Of a stretch of DNA of 35,799 bases, positions 565 through 35,114 are shown one piece after another. The DNA comes from a virus: positions 1-35,799 of IMG/VR virus record IMGVR_UViG_3300011116_000395. One strand, 5' to 3'. The notes beneath the pieces were generated by a model. That model was not told where the DNA came from, did no database searches, and saw nothing but the letters and a program-made list of their open reading frames with translations. The translations under genes were made by a program, and so were the position numbers. Every line of letters starts with the position of its first letter. Within the stretch, counting starts at the first letter, position 1.

Positions 565-1232
565 CGACCCATCTCCTTCAGCTTGGCGTCATCATACTGG
601 ATGCTGGTCTTTAATTGGATCATGTCATTCGATTGCCCTGCGTAATGGATAACCATCGCATCCCTGTATCGGTCCAGCCCGAAGTGCGACTCCACGCTGG
701 TCATGCAGTTATAGGCTGGGTCAAGATCCTGCGTCTTGGTTCCCCATAGGTGCAGGTTCAAGTTAAGCCAGGTCTGTTCGGCAAAGTGATTCGGAAACAG
801 ACCCATCGGAGGTTGCGACAACGCACCAATGGCCCCCTTGTTCATGGCAAAGACGCCGGTGTTGAAATAGAACTTAGGCTCAATATCCGCGCCGAAGGTC
901 TTGGCCAGATCCTTCAATCCCTTCTTTCGGTCAAGGTACTCGCCCTCGTTAAACCCAAGGAAAGCGTAGTCGTCACCCTGTGCAGCAATGTCCTCGCAAT
1001 CCTGCGCGATCAAGACATCGCAGTCAAAGAACGTGACCTGCTCATACCCACGGGTGACCATGATGTTTGCGATGACCAGCTTGGTGTACTGCACAGGCTC
1101 GACCAGCGGTTTCTCGATCGAGATAAAATCATTCTGGGTGCGCTTGCAGTAATCCTCCATGCGCGGCTTGGTCAATGCCAGTACCTCCATCCACTTATCC
1201 CCGAAAGCTTGGGTTACGACGACCTTCTTCAT
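561..1232 (-). CDS. GT8-type (glycogenin-like) glycosyltransferase
   Basis: A 223-residue GT-A-fold sugar transferase that should move a sugar from a nucleotide-sugar donor in a metal-dependent reaction. The GT8 signatures are visible in order: N-terminal strand KKVVVTQAFG, the DxD metal site FFDCD at residues 68-72, the FNTGVFAM segment at 123-130, the EQ/LN segment near 152-158 and IHYAGQ at 195-200. The start is ATG 1232, which overlaps the TGA of the upstream gene (ATGA); the frame extends further upstream but that part lies inside the upstream gene. The acceptor is unknown. With a GT9-type transferase and a DNA methyltransferase in the same genome, candidates are modified phage DNA, host surface glycan or a virion protein. 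Confidence 0.82.
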   Translation of the reverse strand: MKKVVVTQAFGDKWMEVLALTKPRMEDYCKRTQNDFISIEKPLVEPVQYTKLVIANIMVTRGYEQVTFFDCDVLIAQDCEDIAAQGDDYAFLGFNEGEYLDRKKGLKDLAKTFGADIEPKFYFNTGVFAMNKGAIGALSQPPMGLFPNHFAEQTWLNLNLHLWGTKTQDLDPAYNCMTSVESHFGLDRYRDAMVIHYAGQSNDMIQLKTSIQYDDAKLKEMGR

Positions 1233-1504
1233 GCCTTCTCCATCAGAATCTCGTCGGCCTCTTCCATGAGTAGCTCCTCGGCAAACGTGACCAGATCCTG
1301 CTCCGGCTCGATAACCTTGTTGCCGCCGATTAGAATCTCCATGCGCTCGATCTGCATCTCGCAGGGACAATCACACCAGACGTGTTCCCGGTGGCCTTCC
1401 GGCCCCAGGTCCACTTTCTCTGTCTGGTACACCGCATCACCGAACACGGTGGCTTCCTGGCCATCCCATATAAACCTGACCTCAACGTCCTCTAATTTTT
1501 TCAT
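1229..1504 (-). CDS. Small acidic hypothetical protein with a DCPC motif (91 aa)
   Basis: Starts at ATG 1504, overlapping the TGA of the gene upstream, and ends overlapping the start of the glycosyltransferase gene. The N-terminal half reads as beta-strands (VEVRFIWDGQEATVFGDAV), followed by WCDCPCEMQIERMEILIGG and an acidic helical tail rich in Glu. The two close cysteines (CDCPC) could bind a metal or be redox-active, but no second cysteine pair is present, so a zinc finger is unlikely. No family recognised. Confidence 0.7.
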   Translation of the reverse strand: MKKLEDVEVRFIWDGQEATVFGDAVYQTEKVDLGPEGHREHVWCDCPCEMQIERMEILIGGNKVIEPEQDLVTFAEELLMEEADEILMEKA

Positions 1505-1797
1505 AGTCGTGGTACTTCCTTTTTTACCTGCGCCCAGACGAACAGCGCACGGACCACAGCTCTTTCGAGATGATCCGCCGCCGTTTCGCCGTTGTTATCC
1601 GGGCAAGGCGTTGACTTCTGCAACTGCAACATGGCCGTGGATAGGTGACGCATAGCGCGACCTATATGATAGTCGTGGACCGGCTTGTCAACATGAAACC
1701 ATTCTCCATAGCTTGACTTGTCCGAGCCTTTGCCCATCACCCGCCAGACGATGTCGGCGGCGGCTTCTCCAAGTTCTCCTATGGTGGGAGGATTCAT
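1501..1797 (-). CDS. Hypothetical protein, weakly like phage DUF5664 proteins
   Basis: 98 residues from ATG 1797, which overlaps the stop of the nuclease gene upstream (ATGA); an earlier in-frame start at 1839 would lie inside that nuclease gene and is less likely. It is largely helical. The pattern YGEWFHVDKPVHDYHIGRAM, then RHL, then after a gap DHLERAVVRALFVWA recalls the phage DUF5664 (dATP/dGTP-diphosphohydrolase N-terminal) layout, where an RHL helix is followed by an H-x3-A helix. The match is by eye only, and the metal-binding HD residues of a true phosphohydrolase are not evident. Function open. Confidence 0.65.
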   Translation of the reverse strand: MNPPTIGELGEAAADIVWRVMGKGSDKSSYGEWFHVDKPVHDYHIGRAMRHLSTAMLQLQKSTPCPDNNGETAADHLERAVVRALFVWAQVKKEVPRL

Positions 1798-2612
1798 ATC
1801 TTCATGCCCGGAGGTACGTATTGCTTGGACCAAGACCATACCTTGAGCATTGCGCTAAAGGCAATGCCAGCCTGATAGAGTTCCTCCTCGTCCCACACAT
1901 GGTGCTGGATTGATTCCGGTTCGTTGGACGCCAGCACCACCGACACGCACGCTGCCTTGGGATTCTCCGAGGCGATTCGATAGGCCCAAAGCTGGGCGCA
2001 GTCCGTATCGTAGAATGGGTCGTACTTGGGATTTACCTTGCGGTTCTTCAGGTCGATGATGGCGTCGCCAATTCCCTTGAGGCGGACATAGGCGTCGCAC
2101 CTTCCAGCGTAACCAGCACCGACCAATGCCTTTTCGCACCAATACGTTTTCTCGATATTGTAACTTGCCCATTTTTCAAATGTTTTGATGTAAGGCCCAA
2201 GTGCTTCGTCCTTGGAGCAAGCACGTCCCAAAAGGATATTTTCCATTTCGGTATGCATTTTTGTCCCATGCTCCGCCGCCTTGGTGGTTGACTGCTTGGA
2301 GTCCTTGACGACTCTCTTTGCATATTCTTCAAGCGTTTCATTTTCCTCCTTTGGAAGAGTCAGTGACGACATGATGGCCTGCTCGATCTTCCATGATGTA
2401 AGCTGCGGCTTGTCCATGATGCCAAGCACGCTGGTAACCGATGGAAGCAATCCCATCTTACGTGCGTCAGCAACCGTGGTGTTGCGCTCGTTGCCATTCT
2501 TTCCAATGACAACGTGCGCCGACTCGCCTTGTTCCGTATACCAATGTCCCGCCTGGTCCGTTTGGACCAGACGGGATTGGCTAGGCTCTTTTTGGGTTAG
2601 GGTAAGAGCCAC
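1794..2612 (-). CDS. RecB/Exo-type PD-(D/E)XK nuclease
   Basis: 272 residues. The core of a RecB-like (Cas4/lambda-exonuclease type) nuclease is readable: LPSVTSVLG at 56-64 as in phage exonucleases, GTKMH with the metal-linked His at 116-120, CE at 159-160, GRCDAY (Asp173), IIDLKNRK (Asp187, Lys189) and the QLWAYR helix at 207-212. Such enzymes resect DNA ends for recombination or process replication intermediates. The start is GTG 2612, three bases after the stop of the SSB-like gene, without a strong ribosome site, so translation is probably coupled. The neighbouring SSB-like protein and resolvase support a recombination role. Whether it prefers 5' or 3' ends cannot be read from the sequence. 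Confidence 0.85.
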   Translation of the reverse strand: MALTLTQKEPSQSRLVQTDQAGHWYTEQGESAHVVIGKNGNERNTTVADARKMGLLPSVTSVLGIMDKPQLTSWKIEQAIMSSLTLPKEENETLEEYAKRVVKDSKQSTTKAAEHGTKMHTEMENILLGRACSKDEALGPYIKTFEKWASYNIEKTYWCEKALVGAGYAGRCDAYVRLKGIGDAIIDLKNRKVNPKYDPFYDTDCAQLWAYRIASENPKAACVSVVLASNEPESIQHHVWDEEELYQAGIAFSAMLKVWSWSKQYVPPGMKI

Positions 2613-2615
2613 TGC

Positions 2616-3257
2616 TTAGAACGGCACCTGGTTGCCGTCTCCGTCAACAGCCTTTGCCTGCGGTGCCGAAGACGCACCATCGGAAAGCTCCTTGCTGGAG
2701 CGGATCTTCTCCTGCAACCACTCCGGCAGCTCGCTGAACTGGCCGCCGGTTTCCTGCTCGATCTCGTAGAACACCTGGCCATTCTGCGTGGTCGTCGGTG
2801 CCTTCATGCCTTTTGGCAGTTTGGCCATTCCCTGAATGGCGCAGTACTGCCGTCCGGCTTGGCTGGTCTTGTGGACCAGAGTTAGCAGGCAGGCTTTGCC
2901 GAGGAGGTTCTTCAGGCTGAAGGACGCAAGCTCCTTGCTTGTGAACGCCGCGCCGCGCCACTGCTCAAGCAGCTTGCGAAGGGTCGCACGCTCGCCAAGG
3001 CTGCGGGTCAGCTCGATGGAAACCACCATCGGTTTGGTCACCTTGGTCGTCTTGCCGTTTTCGGTGACCTCTCCCTCGAGAACCTGGTCGGGCAACTCAA
3101 ATGCCAGACGGAGTTTCGGGGTCCACTTCTCCTCGCCGTCCCAGGTCACCTTCTGGGTGCCGAGATCGACCAGGCTGAAGAGAACGCCGGTGGTTGCTCC
3201 GGCCTCGGGCAACTGGCGTTCCGTGTTTTTCGATGTTTCACTTAGGGTTAGTGCCAT
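2616..3257 (-). CDS. Single-stranded-DNA-binding-like replication protein
   Basis: 213 residues from ATG 3257, preceded by AGGAG at good spacing (3266-3270). It has the look of phage SSB-like proteins annotated beside RecB-type nucleases: an N-terminal MALTLSETSKN, a strand pair around VTWDGEEKWTPKLRLAFELP, the SIELTRSLGERATLRKLLEQ block, then the conserved SLKNLLGKACLLTLVHKTS stretch and AIQGMAKLPKG. The last residues (DGDGNQVPF) form an acidic tail ending in Phe, the hallmark of SSB C-termini that recruit partner proteins. It probably coats single-stranded DNA and works with the adjacent nuclease and the primase-helicase. The family assignment is from memory of similar phage proteins. Confidence 0.72.
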   Translation of the reverse strand: MALTLSETSKNTERQLPEAGATTGVLFSLVDLGTQKVTWDGEEKWTPKLRLAFELPDQVLEGEVTENGKTTKVTKPMVVSIELTRSLGERATLRKLLEQWRGAAFTSKELASFSLKNLLGKACLLTLVHKTSQAGRQYCAIQGMAKLPKGMKAPTTTQNGQVFYEIEQETGGQFSELPEWLQEKIRSSKELSDGASSAPQAKAVDGDGNQVPF

Positions 3258-3268
3258 ATATGTATCTC

Positions 3269-28232: not shown

Positions 28233-28264
28233 AAACCAAAAGAAAGGAAACACATACAATGAAA
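28233..28264 (+). repeat. 32-bp perfect direct repeat, copy 1 (leader and ribosome site)
   Basis: This segment begins AAACCAAAAGAAAGGAAAC and runs through the ATG and the next codon of the gene at 28259. An identical copy lies exactly 370 bases downstream at 28603-28634, over the start of the gene at 28629. It contains AAAGGAAA, a ribosome site. The duplication of a leader but not of the protein suggests gene recruitment by recombination or shared post-transcriptional control. Confidence 0.85.
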
Positions 28265-28543
28265 ACAATAAGGAAAACAATTAAAAAATTTATAGAGCCA
28301 TCAGTTGACGGACTAGGCAGAGAGATTACTGCAATTTGCTATGGAAAGGTATGGCACGAAACTGATTTATACGGAAATATCCACATAGAAGATGCTGGAG
28401 AGGATTACGATCCCCCCTATGAGAGATATATGCTCACGATAGGCAATCAAGGGTATGTGAGCGGAAATCTTGAGAAGCTTGAAAAGATATTGTTTGAATG
28501 GGCAAAAGATGAGGAGGTATTTACGGAGGAAGATTACGAATAA
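28259..28543 (+). CDS. Hypothetical small protein with a duplicated leader (94 aa)
   Basis: Starts at ATG 28259 with AAAGGAAA upstream in the 32-bp repeat. A basic N-terminus (KTIRKTIKKFIEPS) is followed by beta-strands (REITAICYGKVWHETDLYGN, ERYMLTIGNQGYVSGNL) and a strongly acidic C-terminus (FEWAKDEEVFTEEDYE). The gene is followed by two hairpins that may end transcription. No family recognised. Confidence 0.65.
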   Translation: MKTIRKTIKKFIEPSVDGLGREITAICYGKVWHETDLYGNIHIEDAGEDYDPPYERYMLTIGNQGYVSGNLEKLEKILFEWAKDEEVFTEEDYE

Positions 28544-28548
28544 AGTCG

Positions 28549-28586
28549 AAACCCCTTTGGGGGTCTTTGCGGTTGGCTACCGCAAA
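28549..28586 (+). terminator. Two hairpins between small rightward genes
   Basis: The first hairpin pairs ACCCC (28551-28555) with GGGGT and is followed by CTTT, like a short intrinsic terminator. The second pairs TTTGCGGT (28566-28573) perfectly with ACCGCAAA (28579-28586) around the loop TGGCT. The stem contains the TTGCGGT sequence found repeatedly near the primase gene. It could limit read-through or be an attenuator or processing site between the genes at 28259 and 28629. Confidence 0.55.
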
Positions 28587-28602
28587 CTGATGAGACAGCC
28601 AA

Positions 28603-28634
28603 AAACCAAAAGAAAGGAAACACATACAATGAAA
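28603..28634 (+). repeat. 32-bp perfect direct repeat, copy 2
   Basis: Identical to 28233-28264, over the leader and first codons of the gene at 28629. The two genes' proteins are not alike beyond the first two residues (Met-Lys), so the identity is in the DNA or RNA rather than inherited through protein similarity. Confidence 0.85.
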
Positions 28635-31092: not shown

Positions 31093-33024
31093 TTACGAAA
31101 GCTCGGTGATCTTCCAACCATCCCCATCCTTGGAGATCGTGCCATCAGATTTTGCGGTAGCAAACAACTCCTGTGCCTTCCGTTGGGAACACCCAACGCA
31201 AGCCACAATATGCTCCAGACAGGCGGTGTACCCACTCCCTTTCGGCCAATCGGGCAGGGCCGGTTCTATGGTCATTTCCTTGCGCCCCCTGCCCGTGTTC
31301 TCTGGCCCATTTGACTCCTCCCAGGCCATCCACTCCTCGGCATGGCGTAGCCATACATGGGTGGCGTACTTGCTGGCGTGTACATCGGTATCGCCCTGGG
31401 GCCAAGGGATAGCTGCCCGTGTTCCGCGCTTGGGGAACGACAGCTTAAAATGCCCTTCCTTGACCGCCTGAAGGTACACCACGGCCCTTGCCCAGTTGGT
31501 TAGCTCGCTTGACCCTAGCCCAGCGTAGGCGAGATCGTAGAGCGTTTGTGAGCCACCACCTTCCTTCGGCGGCTTTGGCGTGTGGTGCATTACCATCCAT
31601 GTCACCCCGGTGGCCACGCTGATTGGGTTCAGGCAGTGGCGCAGGAACATGGTCATGTTCTCCTGGGCAAGGGCATCCCCTCCCATAAAGGATAGGAGCG
31701 GATCAATCCAGCACAGGTCCGGGCGATGTAGGCCAATCAGGGCAGCCGTCATCTTTGCGAAGTCCGGCCCCGTTTTGGTCGTGTCCCTGATGATCGTGAC
31801 ATTGGCAAGCATCAATGCAGACTGCTCCTCGGTCAGGTTCAGCTTTCCCTTGAGGTGTCGAAGCACACCTTGGGCCATCTCCGCAACATCACCCAGATCG
31901 TTCTCGGCCTGTACCAACAGGCTTCGTAGCGGCTTCTTGGGCGTGATCCCAAGGAACGGTAGGCCGATGGCCCAGGTCATCATGGCTTGCAGGCAGAGCG
32001 TGGACTTTCCCAACCCCGATCCTCCGATCCATACGCATGACCCGCCCTTGCACAACCAGCGATTGCCAAGCAAACAATCGCCATCCTCGTCCGCCTTGAA
32101 CCCCAGGATGTCCTGCCACGGCGTAGGTTGCGGCAGGTTCATCGCCTCCATGTGCGCCCGCCACTCGCTCCACCCTTGCCGCCCGATGTTCGTTGCGAGC
32201 AACGCCTGGTGGGCATTGGCGAGTTTCCTCGGCGCACCGGGGAGGCGCGACAACCTTGAGGCATCCTTGTTCTTGGGGTCGATGTCGAACTGCGCCATCT
32301 TGGAATAGAGGTAGGCCACCCGATCCTCATATTCCTTGGCATCTTTGGCATCCACCTTGACCCAGGCATGGACCGAGCGGGAGCCGGAGTGGATGACCAC
32401 CGAGCAGGGCAGCTCAAGTGCGCGGATGACATTCCACTGCTCATCCATCGTGCCGCTGTCGAACTCGATCAGCGCATGACGGAAGGCTTGGACATCATCG
32501 GACTTGCGCGACTCGCCAACGGGATTGATGCAGACATAAGCCCCGACATAGCTTTCGGGCAACTCGACCCCGGCATGGAACTGCTTGAGCCAATCCTCGC
32601 GGGTCTTGATGGTTCCCTTTCCTGACGGCCTCTCGCTGTCGTCCTGGTGGATTGCGCCCACGATGCATACCCGGTCGCCCTCATTGAAGGCGGTGAGCAA
32701 AAACTTCCTGACATCATCGGCGTGGTGGCTTGGCTTTGGGCATGGCTCAAGCTCGATCCGCACAGGTTCTTGGATCTTGAATGGGTTGAGCGATTCCCCG
32801 ATGGGCTGGCGGGCAGCCTTGCGATAGGCTGACTTGATCGCCGCCTCGATCTCGCGGTCCTTCAGCCCGCTCGATGTAGCCCCCGGCCACAGGCGATCCA
32901 AGGCATCCGACTCCGCAATGCCCGCGTCCCTGAGTTGCTGTGCGGCCAGAAACAACTCCTGGTTACGCTCGCCCTCCTTGGCTCCGTTGCTGATGAAGTT
33001 CTCGGTTCGTTTGGGTAGTCTCAC
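31093..33024 (-). CDS. Primase-helicase fusion (AEP-type primase plus RepA/AAA helicase)
   Basis: 643 residues from GTG 33024, which overlaps the upstream TGA (GTGA) with AAGGAAGG just before it; a longer frame to 33075 lies in the upstream gene. An N-terminal polymerase-type primase domain shows FRHALIEFDSG with candidate metal residues Glu187 and Asp189, SGSRSVHAWVKV near 213-224 and SRLSRLPGAPRK near 256-267. A RecA-like helicase follows: Walker A GGSGLGKST at 334-342, the VQAENDLGD segment, Walker B LCWIDPLLSFMGG (Asp441) and a C-terminal winged-helix-like tail. It would prime and unwind DNA at the phage origin. The inverted-repeat region at its 3' side may be its target. Confidence 0.82.
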   Translation of the reverse strand: MRLPKRTENFISNGAKEGERNQELFLAAQQLRDAGIAESDALDRLWPGATSSGLKDREIEAAIKSAYRKAARQPIGESLNPFKIQEPVRIELEPCPKPSHHADDVRKFLLTAFNEGDRVCIVGAIHQDDSERPSGKGTIKTREDWLKQFHAGVELPESYVGAYVCINPVGESRKSDDVQAFRHALIEFDSGTMDEQWNVIRALELPCSVVIHSGSRSVHAWVKVDAKDAKEYEDRVAYLYSKMAQFDIDPKNKDASRLSRLPGAPRKLANAHQALLATNIGRQGWSEWRAHMEAMNLPQPTPWQDILGFKADEDGDCLLGNRWLCKGGSCVWIGGSGLGKSTLCLQAMMTWAIGLPFLGITPKKPLRSLLVQAENDLGDVAEMAQGVLRHLKGKLNLTEEQSALMLANVTIIRDTTKTGPDFAKMTAALIGLHRPDLCWIDPLLSFMGGDALAQENMTMFLRHCLNPISVATGVTWMVMHHTPKPPKEGGGSQTLYDLAYAGLGSSELTNWARAVVYLQAVKEGHFKLSFPKRGTRAAIPWPQGDTDVHASKYATHVWLRHAEEWMAWEESNGPENTGRGRKEMTIEPALPDWPKGSGYTACLEHIVACVGCSQRKAQELFATAKSDGTISKDGDGWKITELS

Positions 33025-33587
33025 GCCTTCCTTTCCATGATTGCCTTCATGCATTTGATCGCCTGATCCACGCATGACTTGGCATCATCCATGACTTCTT
33101 TTGCTGCGAATCTCAAAACAGTCCAGCCATTTTCCGTGCAATCCCTATCTCTGGCCCGATCTCTTGTGAATGATTCTTTGCTGTTATGGTATGCGTAGCC
33201 GTCGATCTCAATGGCCAACTTGATTTCTGGATTTGCGAAATCAAACCTATACGATCTGCCATTGCACTCCACGCAATGCTGGATTATTAGATAATCTAAT
33301 GCTTCATCGTTCCATGCCTTATGGAACATCCGCTCGACTTCGCTTTCGTATGAGTGGGCAAAGGCGCAGGCAACAAGTTCAAGCGCATCGGTTCTGCTTA
33401 TTCTATTTGATGTGAGTGGACCACCCTTGGCCTTGAATATTCTTATGGCTCCATCTTGTCCGGCGTTCCACACGCGACAGTACATGGCAATGGCCGCGCA
33501 GGATGCGTAAAATTCGCTGGCGGGTGCGTCATCGCTAACCCCGCAAAGCCTTTTGATAATAGGACGGAAGTCTTGATCGAAACTCAT
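33021..33587 (-). CDS. DUF559/Vsr-like endonuclease domain protein (188 aa)
   Basis: The second half has the DUF559 restriction-endonuclease-like layout: YRFDFANPEIKLAIEIDGYA with Asp116, Glu127 and Asp129, HNSKESFTRDRARDRDCTEN, and GWTVLRFAAKEV at 154-165. The first about 80 residues are a separate helical domain (IIKRLCGVSDDAPASEFYAS) of unknown type. The family includes Vsr-like nicking enzymes and mobile or repair-linked nucleases. The gene begins shortly after the repeated stem-loops at 33612-33830 and is followed by the primase-helicase with a GTGA overlap. Confidence 0.75.
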   Translation of the reverse strand: MSFDQDFRPIIKRLCGVSDDAPASEFYASCAAIAMYCRVWNAGQDGAIRIFKAKGGPLTSNRISRTDALELVACAFAHSYESEVERMFHKAWNDEALDYLIIQHCVECNGRSYRFDFANPEIKLAIEIDGYAYHNSKESFTRDRARDRDCTENGWTVLRFAAKEVMDDAKSCVDQAIKCMKAIMERKA

Positions 33588-33611
33588 TTATTAACCTCGG
33601 ATCATGCCCGC

Positions 33612-33749
33612 CTAAAGCACCCGCGCAAGTAACTGTCGCATGATATAAGTCATGCTTATATGGAAGATCATGCCCCTTTGTTTCAAATGGCTGAGTTTGT
33701 CGGCCAGCCGCATGATCTCCATGCGTACCATTCGGGGCATCGGGTTCAT
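33612..33749 (-). CDS. Small ORF 1 with a repeated stem-loop near its start (45 aa)
   Basis: From ATG 33749 the frame reads MNPMPRMVRMEIMRLADKLS and then HLKQRGMIFHIS and so on. ATGs at 33731 and others in the same frame give shorter versions. The codons MVRMEIMRL lie over an inverted repeat (CGCATG-ATCTC-CATGCG) that also occurs, with changes, in the next small ORF. No ribosome site is evident. Whether it is translated is uncertain; it may be an RNA element rather than a gene. Confidence 0.35.
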   Translation of the reverse strand: MNPMPRMVRMEIMRLADKLSHLKQRGMIFHISMTYIMRQLLARVL

Positions 33750-33824
33750 AAATCAAACCGGCTCTGTTTCAAGAGGCGTACACACTAGGAGGACAGCCCG
33801 CCGCAGGATCTCCCTGCGTACCAT
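33703..33824 (-). repeat. Duplicated stem-loop with a compensating base-pair change
   Basis: Two copies (about 33709-33731 and 33801-33825) share the order stem, ATCTC loop, stem, GTACCAT (plus strand). Copy 1 has the arms CGCATG/CATGCG, copy 2 has CGCAGG/CCTGCG. The single difference in the stem is balanced on both arms, so pairing is kept. On the minus strand the loop is GAGAT and each copy carries an ATG followed by GTACGCA. This is what a duplicated RNA or DNA structure under pairing constraint looks like. Confidence 0.65.
33753..33824 (-). CDS. Small ORF 2, start related to ORF 1 (23 aa)
   Basis: From ATG 33824 the frame reads MVRREILRRAVLLVCTPLET then EPV. Its first eight residues parallel MVRMEIMRL of the other small ORF because the DNA is duplicated there. 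Length, absence of a ribosome site and the hairpin make coding uncertain; listed because it may be a leader peptide. Confidence 0.3.
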   Translation of the reverse strand: MVRREILRRAVLLVCTPLETEPV

Positions 33825-33834
33825 GCGCCGGAGT

Positions 33835-34005
33835 TTAGATATCCTTCCTCACCTCCCTGACGATAAAGGTGTAGGCAAGAATGAACAGTGCATCCCACCA
33901 ATCAATCTGGCTATACCCAGAGGCGCACAGGATAATCTTTAGCGTAAAGAACCACGGGCAGACTATGACCGCAATGTCTGCGGCCCTGTTCATGGCTTTG
34001 TTCAT
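33835..34005 (-). CDS. Small membrane protein (56 aa)
   Basis: ATG 34005 overlaps the TGA of the GT9-type gene (ATGA). The frame reads MNKAMNRAADIAVIVCPWFF, TLKIILCASGYSQIDWWDAL, FILAYTFIVREVRKDI: two membrane helices (about 9-27 and 33-48) with a charged end. Small two-helix proteins may be holin-like or bind host membrane enzymes. Its position after the glycosyltransferase suggests a joint surface role, but nothing direct supports this. Confidence 0.6.
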   Translation of the reverse strand: MNKAMNRAADIAVIVCPWFFTLKIILCASGYSQIDWWDALFILAYTFIVREVRKDI

Positions 34006-35114
34006 TTGCTCTTCTCCTCCAACTCCATCGCTTTCGCCGCCGCATCTACAATATCCTTGGCGGTGATGTTGCGTAGGGCATTGCACCAGTACTGGGTGCC
34101 TTTGGTCTTGTTGGTCGCATCCTTACACTTCTGTTGCGGCAAGCCCGCATGAGGGCGGCACGGAGCGTGCGGGCAGGTGTCAGGCTTGTAGACTGACACG
34201 TTCTTTGGGTAGAACTGAACTCGATCTTCTGGCGAATATGATCCCCACAAGCTGACGCAAGCCGTGTCCAAGCCCGCCGCCATGTGGTTGACACTGCTGT
34301 CGGGCGCCACGACAAAGTCCGCGTTGGCTATGATCGGGAACAGCGACCGCACCTGCTTGGTGCAGTTGAAGAGGTCGATGACCCTGGGGTGATTCACCTC
34401 GAAGTTGTTGGAGTTGTCCAGCCCGATGATAACCGCGTGATGTTTGGGGTACGCTTCAAGCAATGCCAGCACCGCCTCCTGCCCCATCTTGGGCGGGTAG
34501 GTGCGGGTCGGACCAGAGCTGCTTACATGGTAAGCAAAGAAAGGCGTTGGTAGCGGCCACTTGCCAAGTTCCTTTAGCTCGTTGTGATCTGGGTCGATTA
34601 GGTACAGCTTTGGCCTACAATACTTGGCCATCTTCTCCTCATCCCATGCGTTCATCCATTCGTAGATGCGCTTGTAGGCGTTGCCTGCGCCTGTCCCAAG
34701 CTTGGTGTTGCCAACCTGGCCGGAGAACAAATCATCCAGTGGAACATGGGCATCGTATGATTCCCAAGCTTCCAGCGTTGGCGGTAGTGGGAGCAGCCTT
34801 GCGCCTAGCCCAGCGTAGAGCGTCATGTTGCGGGCTGGAGTGTAAACATCCACTACCCCTCCAGATTCCTGTACCAGGTAGTTGACGATTGCGGTTGCGA
34901 TGACGCTATCACCGATAGCACCAGCCCTGTACACGGCGGTCGCTCCGCCCGTTGCCCGCCCCGGATAGTACGGCTTGATCTTGTGCGGCACCGGCACGGC
35001 ATCGTCCCAGAGTGGTCCAGTAAGTTCGTCTGGGATCATGTAGGTCGTCCTCGGCCACAGATTGTTATCGTCCACCTTGTGGACTGAGTTGGTTTGATTG
35101 GTCCAGGTTTTCAT
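34002..35114 (-). CDS. GT9-type (heptosyltransferase-like) glycosyltransferase
   Basis: 370 residues with GT-B fold signs: YRAGAIGDSVIATAIVNYLV near 62-81 (the Gly-Asp donor-loop motif of GT9), PTPFFAYHVSSSGPTRTYPP, HAVIIGLDNSNNFEVNHPRV, and the family signature NADFVVAPDSSVNHMAAGLD at 264-283 followed by CVSLWGSYSPEDRVQFY. The C-terminus has four cysteines (314, 319, 330, 344), perhaps a zinc site. GT9 enzymes transfer heptose or other sugars to lipopolysaccharide cores, but phage versions are also known to act on DNA or virion proteins. It is preceded by a cytosine methyltransferase with an ATGA overlap. Confidence 0.82.
   Translation of the reverse strand: MKTWTNQTNSVHKVDDNNLWPRTTYMIPDELTGPLWDDAVPVPHKIKPYYPGRATGGATAVYRAGAIGDSVIATAIVNYLVQESGGVVDVYTPARNMTLYAGLGARLLPLPPTLEAWESYDAHVPLDDLFSGQVGNTKLGTGAGNAYKRIYEWMNAWDEEKMAKYCRPKLYLIDPDHNELKELGKWPLPTPFFAYHVSSSGPTRTYPPKMGQEAVLALLEAYPKHHAVIIGLDNSNNFEVNHPRVIDLFNCTKQVRSLFPIIANADFVVAPDSSVNHMAAGLDTACVSLWGSYSPEDRVQFYPKNVSVYKPDTCPHAPCRPHAGLPQQKCKDATNKTKGTQYWCNALRNITAKDIVDAAAKAMELEEKSK

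Follow-up and report, generated by a model that had tools for sequence, protein, structure and literature searches.

A 35.8 kb record of a tailed phage (the window, 35,799 nucleotides in all; its genes include terminase, major head protein and portal-like genes) contains two tandem copies of a small three-way-junction RNA, which belong to a structured RNA class carried by phages. The existence of this class is practically certain, and the effect size of the covariation described below, an independent sample and the wholesale replacement of stems leave little room for chance. At least 119 viral-contig stretches contain the exact repeat pattern GGTACGCAnGGAGATCnTGCG. No match listed for Rfam 15 overlaps the element; the class lacks a counterpart there and is rated new as an RNA family, and its function may prove to be of a known kind.

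In the window, the pair occupies 33836–33754 and then 33743–33668 on the minus strand (76–83 nt each), and both of its hairpins lie between the end of a small ORF (33835) and the start of a DUF559/MTES_1575 gene (33587). A first-pass annotation had reported two near-identical stem-loops with a balanced stem change at 33703–33825, and had read them as a conserved minus-strand structure, its pairing kept by a compensatory change, in front of a DUF559-like gene; all of this is present as described. The repeat copies (33703–33734 and 33796–33827) are 88% identical at a spacing of 93 nt, with stems CGCATG/CATGCG and CGCAGG/CCTGCG and the loop GAGAT on the minus strand (ATCTC on the plus strand). 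Their minus-strand core, ATGGTACGCAnGGAGATCnTGCGGC, has two exact matches in the window and no others with up to three mismatches, and is absent from 100 of 100 dinucleotide shuffles of the window. The bare 17-nt stem-loop, with three mismatches allowed, matches at least twice in 39 of 100 shuffles and is not rare; it is therefore the identity of the flanks that carries the local statistics. The hairpins are real but do not constitute the unit: each is P2, the middle arm of a larger three-way junction.

Copy 1 (33754–33836, minus strand) matches the covariance model R1 with 79.7 bits, and its start falls within the stop codon (33837–33835) of the small ORF ending at 33835. In alignment A6, its P1 strands CCGGC (33827–33831) and GCCGG (33758–33762) pair with one another, its P2 hairpin CGCAGG-GAGAU-CCUGCG spans 33802–33818, as the stem-loop match also indicates, and the conserved GAAAC of junction J3/1 (A6 columns 133–137) lies at 33766–33770. 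Copy 2 (33668–33743, minus strand; R1 match 78.9 bits) pairs AUGCCCC (33734–33740) with GGGGCAU (33670–33676) to form P1, and has a P2 hairpin CGCAUG-GAGAU-CAUGCG at 33709–33725 and a P3 hairpin UGGC...GCCA at 33688–33706; all three helices appear in A6 and in the minimum-energy fold, and P2 also as a stem-loop match. R1 was built from 22 sequences, including copy 1 of the window and excluding copy 2. Folding-energy z-scores are +0.38 for copy 1 and −2.55 for copy 2, so thermodynamics alone would have rejected copy 1. Downstream of the pair, the DUF559/MTES_1575 restriction-endonuclease-like gene (33021–33587, minus strand) matches Pfam PF18741 (40.6 bits), PF04480 (39.6 bits) and phrog_503. 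Upstream lies a glycosyltransferase family 9 gene (34002–35114, minus strand; PF01075), which often neighbours the element on that side in this phage group. No tRNA was called in the window.

The order of the unit is P1-[aUGGUA]-P2(loop GAGAU)-[nC]-P3-[UGAAACa]-P1'. It is recognised as a three-way junction because a constant second half, GAA(A/U)C, lies 19–64 nt downstream of the first (50 representatives) and is followed by the complement of the bases that precede the first half. Members are roughly 70–115 nt long; the stems P1, P2 and P3 vary in sequence, and P1 and P3 also vary in length. The unpaired bases UGGU(A/G), GAGA(U), C and UGAA(A/U)CA are almost fixed: J1/2 ends in UGGU(A/G), the short J2/3 carries the C, and J3/1 carries UGAA(A/U)CA. 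Across 74 rows, A6 columns 133–137 hold G in 73, A in 72, A in 74, A in 60 (U in 14) and C in 74. The base before UGGU is A with GAAAC in 58 of these rows and G with GAAUC or GUAUC in 14; of the two rows outside this count, L143 on rereading has A with GAAAC, in agreement, and L203 is degenerate. This covariation outside the helices points to a tertiary fold, as judged from the alignment. Separately, one copy (L119, 8544–8624) is chimeric, with P1 and GAAUC from one subtype and P2–P3 from another, which would be a sign of recombination inside the element.

Pairing was assessed in several overlapping sets, and the counts rest on related sequences and a model-fitted alignment. L004, L124–L126 and near-identical copies were removed before the model set was made, and further loci were excluded by hand from A3 and A6 (22 sequences and 60 sources used, respectively). 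The R1 search returned 130 matches in 98 sources, and 130 copies, 92 of them distinct, were lined up with both flanks. In 83 distinct R1 rows, in which P2 is constrained by the search pattern, 96.7% of pair cells are paired versus 75.6% when shuffled, with a covariation score of 0.527 versus 0.146. Because of that constraint on P2, an independent sample was drawn of 53 loci found solely through the upstream glycosyltransferase protein, with two weak distinct rows (L235 and L238, 14–18 bits) kept. There, P2 is 100% paired, two-sided changes occur in five of six P2 pairs, and the score is 0.635 versus 0.200. In the joint set of 74 matches (73 distinct), two-sided changes are seen at all 16 of 16 base pairs, a count that shuffles reach in 3 of 500 trials; 96.0% of pair cells are paired versus 68.5% shuffled, and covariation is 0.710 versus 0.197 (reached in 0 of 500 shuffles) and at most 0.152 when the pairing is slid. 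G·U cells outnumber A·C cells by 59 to 8, so the gene-sense strand is the structured strand.

Copies with a P2 that begins in a base other than C were sought by a scan, and the 71 loci it found split cleanly into 11 and 60. All 11 true loci have six P2 pairs; ten of them, including two pairs of near-duplicates, also have a P1 of 7–12 bp, and the eleventh, L187, has a P1 of 4. The other 60 have at most five P2 pairs and at most six P1 pairs. The true copies carry unrelated P2 stems (UCUGGG/CCCAGA, UCUAGG/CCUAGA and UGCAGG/CCUGCA), and P2 is paired in 100% of cells across the 73 distinct copies, so that further copies and their covariation, the check proposed in the first-pass annotation, bore out the pairing. 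A second model, R2, matched 25 of 25 element records, with a best match of at least 41.5 bits in each, and 0 of 10 other records (nine rejected non-C loci and the record of L003). Among 50 records from 50 of the 60 rejected loci, R2 gave two matches, both of 20.6 bits.

Searches beyond viral contigs were negative within their scope. An exact scan of bacterial contigs, which detects just the copies with the common P2, gave three matches in what appears by eye to be coding-like sequence, with the rest of the unit not in place and R1 scores of 17–27 bits. R2 found nothing in the three bacterial genomes with these matches, a weak negative given that they hold no known positive. Weak in the same way, for want of a positive control, are its 0 of 369 genomes of one bacterial class (stricter filters, 12 candidates scored per listed genome) and the 0 of 398 genomes of that class's phylum in which the pattern occurred. 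BLAST of the element against named phages and plasmids returned no place covering 80% of the query. The flanks of L143, L171 and L156 matched named phages or plasmids over at most 5% of the query (best 12 of 169, best 12 of 105 and 9 of 9 matches), and these matches fell in tRNAs, single genes and unannotated stretches. Searches of open-access papers listed no title or abstract start that describes this motif, an absence that proves little.

The element recurs at gene boundaries. Contexts were counted for 165 distinct cases, with L235 and L238 dropped and the matches in L124 and L126 also below the cut. In 102 of the 165 the element starts within 14 nt of the upstream stop codon, and in 63 it does not: 41 have a larger gap, 29 of them of 85–110 nt (second tandem copies plus single copies such as those in L028 and L095), and 22 lack an ORF in the 150 nt upstream. 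Among the genes found on the upstream side are the glycosyltransferase, RusA resolvase (L037, L033), an endonuclease (L185) and unknown genes. At loci of glycosyltransferase relatives the element lies downstream in 48 of 53, and the remaining five (L225, L228, L247, L248, L251) end before its site would be visible. Mechanically called ORFs within 2.5 kb lie mostly on the element strand in 18 of 20 contexts, with a nearly even balance in L017 and L143; in the exceptions, L112 and L157, both direct neighbours are co-directional. In L148 and L156 a co-directional run ends at the element, and the next called ORF is on the opposite strand. The whole-record search covered 39 element records, many of them fragments, and 38 had one site, either single or a tandem pair. 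Two sites were found in G028, the second weak and degenerate, and a separate search gave two unlinked sites in G048.

Some copies have other surroundings. In L143, the element sits between tRNA-Pro and tRNA-Met, 4 and 11 nt from them, and in L171 between tRNA-Met and tRNA-Gly, 112 and 672 nt away; only these two copies sit among tRNAs in the contexts examined, and a tRNA lies ~690 nt from the element in L028. Neither ARAGORN nor RF00005 called a tRNA at the element positions in L143 and L171. The L143 array (647–3259) is a phage array of 17 ARAGORN tRNA genes, in which the element fills one tRNA-sized slot. In L185/L155 the element has a stop codon on one side and, on the other, an intrinsic terminator with no bases in common with P1'. 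L255 has a degenerate copy (1795–1869; J1/2 = AUGAUU) directly before a strong terminator, in the same stop codon–terminator placement, and an in-frame copy elsewhere in the record. In 10 of 165 contexts the element is enclosed by a frame on its own strand that is at least 100 aa long; six of these (L010, L029, L056, L075, L076, L254) are, by resemblance, one kind of open frame of 268–343 aa, and L187 has the element inside a 1432-aa frame. The six frames of one kind, read by eye, encode NGTQGDPAAG at the element or, in L254, NGVQGDPATG; compared with L010, the first P2 pair of L254 has gone from C-G to U-A and so stays paired, one of the two substitutions falling in a codon changed from T to V. 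Ro-like (TROVE) genes were seen in 3 of 32 element records (G007/L028, G040/L143 and G044/L171) and in 0 of 50 controls; a Ro partner was set aside (Fisher p 0.056), and the Ro-like genes may go with phages that carry tRNAs.

The position immediately after the element would, in one phage group, be a slot into which exchangeable genes land, and a good many of these genes encode endonucleases. Loci were collected by way of a 310-aa protein encoded behind the element (80 of 242 were kept), and the element lies upstream in 78 of the 80, the other two, L281 and L288, having just 260 and 65 nt of upstream sequence. Short motifs were used to class the ORF that comes first behind the element, and one or two members of every class were checked; this ORF is the 310-aa gene in 27 loci, a phrog_5018 protein in 18, an HNH gene in 10, phrog_21138 (PD-(D/E)XK-like by eye) in eight, a PAPS reductase-like gene in eight, T5orf172 in three and another gene in three, with none in one. 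Whichever gene follows, its start codon lies 4–10 nt past the element in 74 of 77 loci. Outside the 310-aa group, an HNH gene adjoins the element in L156 and an endonuclease in L185; the element of L010 is followed by a phrog_503 gene, the family matched by the window's DUF559 gene, which fits the pattern of the exchange slot. From the family names, we infer that the endonucleases among these genes are homing endonucleases.

These surroundings also bear on what the hairpins had been taken for, namely twin leader peptides, or a switch or protein-binding site in front of the DUF559 gene. The AUG of the first small ORF lies in the RNA core and is GUG in one subtype, and the reading frame behind it shifts as P3 changes in length. 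The second small ORF keeps its 45-aa frame in the close relatives L001 and L002 (by eye) and ends elsewhere in tandem relatives (L009: 21 codons to TGA, by eye). A device dedicated to the DUF559 gene is not supported as the general function, since the element stands beside many unrelated genes. The hairpin-switch and twin-leader-peptide reading is thus superseded, and the observation behind it was right.

The window also contains a hammerhead type II ribozyme (28544–28604, plus strand; RF02276, 45.1 bits against a gathering threshold of 37) that is not part of the element. It starts directly after the stop codon of a 94-aa ORF (28259–28543) and its end lies 24 nt short of the next ATG, which shows a self-cleaving type of RNA in the stop-codon niche of this phage. 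Like it, the element is a small three-way junction whose core is fixed and whose stems vary, and it too follows a stop codon and precedes the next gene. A hammerhead core consists of CUGAnGA plus GAAA in fixed order. The element, unlike the hammerhead, has a conserved GAGAU loop and no CUGAnGA, the core sequence also given in excerpts of PMC10085705, in its consensus columns. Over 50 element-bearing records, the sole RF02276 match is the window's own hammerhead, with none at an element, and Hammerhead_1 (RF00163) matched 0 of 41 element records and was silent in the control genomes too. An identity with the hammerhead was therefore rejected.

Other known systems share single features with the element. 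Theta ribozymes, described in the excerpted text of PMC10879173 as minimal HDV-like ribozymes beside phage tRNAs, are likewise small phage RNAs; the element, unlike these, matches no ribozyme family in Rfam and is seldom among tRNAs. The HK022 putRNA is, according to excerpts of PMC9378689, ~70 nt long and works as an RNA in a phage with two copies per genome, much as found here, but it comprises two stem-loops downstream of early promoters, whereas the element is a three-way junction mostly after stop codons and was not assigned to putRNA for this reason. Leader RNA structure controls phage homing endonucleases in the T4-type cases of PMC2988022, where it directly precedes the endonuclease gene. 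Such leaders hide a ribosome binding site; the element, by contrast, is kept whichever gene follows and lacks a Shine–Dalgarno (SD)-like tetramer, with AGGA, GGAG or GAGG at 0 of 52 close downstream ATGs (20 nt before the ATG, up to 12 nt into the element). CsrA and RegB sites contain a GGA or GGAG motif. Copies with an A-U-closed loop read AGAGAGAU, without GGA (for example L204, L207 and the second copies of L201 and L206), and readings as an SD in a loop, a CsrA site or a RegB site were rejected on that basis.

It is proposed, as a leading but tentative guess, that the RNA acts in cis in the processing or bounding of transcripts. The element would be transcribed together with its neighbouring genes and would act on the carrying transcript as a cistron-boundary module. 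After transcription this module would be bound or cut, perhaps by its own activity, and flanking messages or tRNAs would thereby be separated or protected, independently of the following gene. The cis-processing reading draws on the covariation, the stop-codon adjacency and the co-directional genes, on the copies between tRNAs (L143, L171) and before terminators (L185/L155, L255), and on the hammerhead in the same niche of the same genome, with tRNA-adjacent phage ribozymes known from the portion of PMC10879173 cited above; it is weakened by the 63 of 165 contexts in which no upstream stop codon lies within 14 nt. Context-independence and stop-codon adjacency also argue against a leader serving one gene. 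True self-cleavage, counted within the cis-acting role, is rather doubtful. By its size, its multistem junction and its fixed bases, the element agrees with the ribozyme-discovery criteria stated in excerpts of PMC10085705; the candidates tested there, hammerheads apart, did not cleave, which weakens a ribozyme reading, as does the presence of a hammerhead in just 1 of 50 element records. Cleavage everywhere is argued against by the copies inside open frames, where cutting would destroy the message. More doubtful again is the composite picture of a new self-cleaving ribozyme class across very different phages, whose edge would form a landing slot for homing endonucleases of several unrelated folds.

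Of the rivals to a cis-acting boundary role, a trans-acting small noncoding RNA is the one with the most to recommend it, and is possible if somewhat doubtful. A stable RNA of ~75 nt would be released from transcripts and would use its fixed loops to bind a factor of the host or the phage, as might be expected from one site in 38 of 39 records (a set with many fragments) regardless of the neighbouring gene, from the tRNA-size slot in L143, the stop-to-terminator position in L185/L155 and the run ends in L148 and L156. Copies within long open frames count against it, as do the two unlinked sites in G048 (and in G028, one of them degenerate) and a search of 33000–34200 in the window, in which no sigma-70-like promoter was found on the element strand. 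The short distance to the next ATG in 74 of 77 loci of one phage group instead suggests a translational lock, in which P1 lies between the stop and the next ATG and is opened by the terminating ribosome so that the next gene starts; the T4-type leaders offer a precedent (excerpts of PMC2988022). The 52 ATGs at most 25 nt from the element, which are mutually related, all lack an SD-like tetramer; such tetramers occur at 88 (first ATG) to 109 (any of the first three) of 253 other ORFs. However, the 310-aa gene has one in 3 of 51 element-distant and 0 of 27 element-adjacent loci; because this gene mostly lacks the tetramer elsewhere too, SD absence hardly tracks the element, and the idea that the element substitutes for the SD of the next gene was weakened by that figure and by the 88–109 of 253 baseline. 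With the tRNA-array and pre-terminator copies lacking a close ATG and the in-frame copies lying inside a gene, the lock is unlikely.

Placement directly before intrinsic terminators (L185/L155, and likewise the degenerate L255 copy), a range of contexts that extends to the inside of a frame, and a length near the ~70 nt of putRNA (PMC9378689, in part) would suit a nascent RNA of the put type, by which RNA polymerase is modified to read through pauses and terminators. This is quite unlikely given the two stem-loops after early promoters described for putRNA in that source, against a three-way junction that often has genes of one run on both sides, and given the opposite-strand ORF that comes next in L148 and L156. 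A ligand-binding riboswitch is very unlikely: the junction has an aptamer-like pattern of fixed unpaired bases and tandem copies, but the genes behind it are of many kinds, the L185 and L255 terminators lie clear of P1', and the bacterial genomes searched held no real copy. Least likely of all is a DNA signal, such as a replication origin, a priming hairpin or the target of a homing endonuclease, rather than an RNA. The single site in most records, the helicase genes beside the element in L157 and L095, a primase-like gene two genes further along in the window and the adjoining endonuclease genes would accord with such a signal; P1 and P2, however, change in sequence while their pairing stays, which a DNA target would not need, and the element is mostly co-directional with genes and near stop codons.

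A widespread, conserved phage RNA that lies outside Rfam 15, and that was not found in the bacterial genomes searched, points to an unknown RNA job in phages. Its fixed core, UGGUA, GAGAU and UGAAACA, provides exact mutation targets for cleavage, binding and processing. Unrelated genes, endonucleases included, replace one another at the site that the element marks, and this bears on gene exchange among phages.
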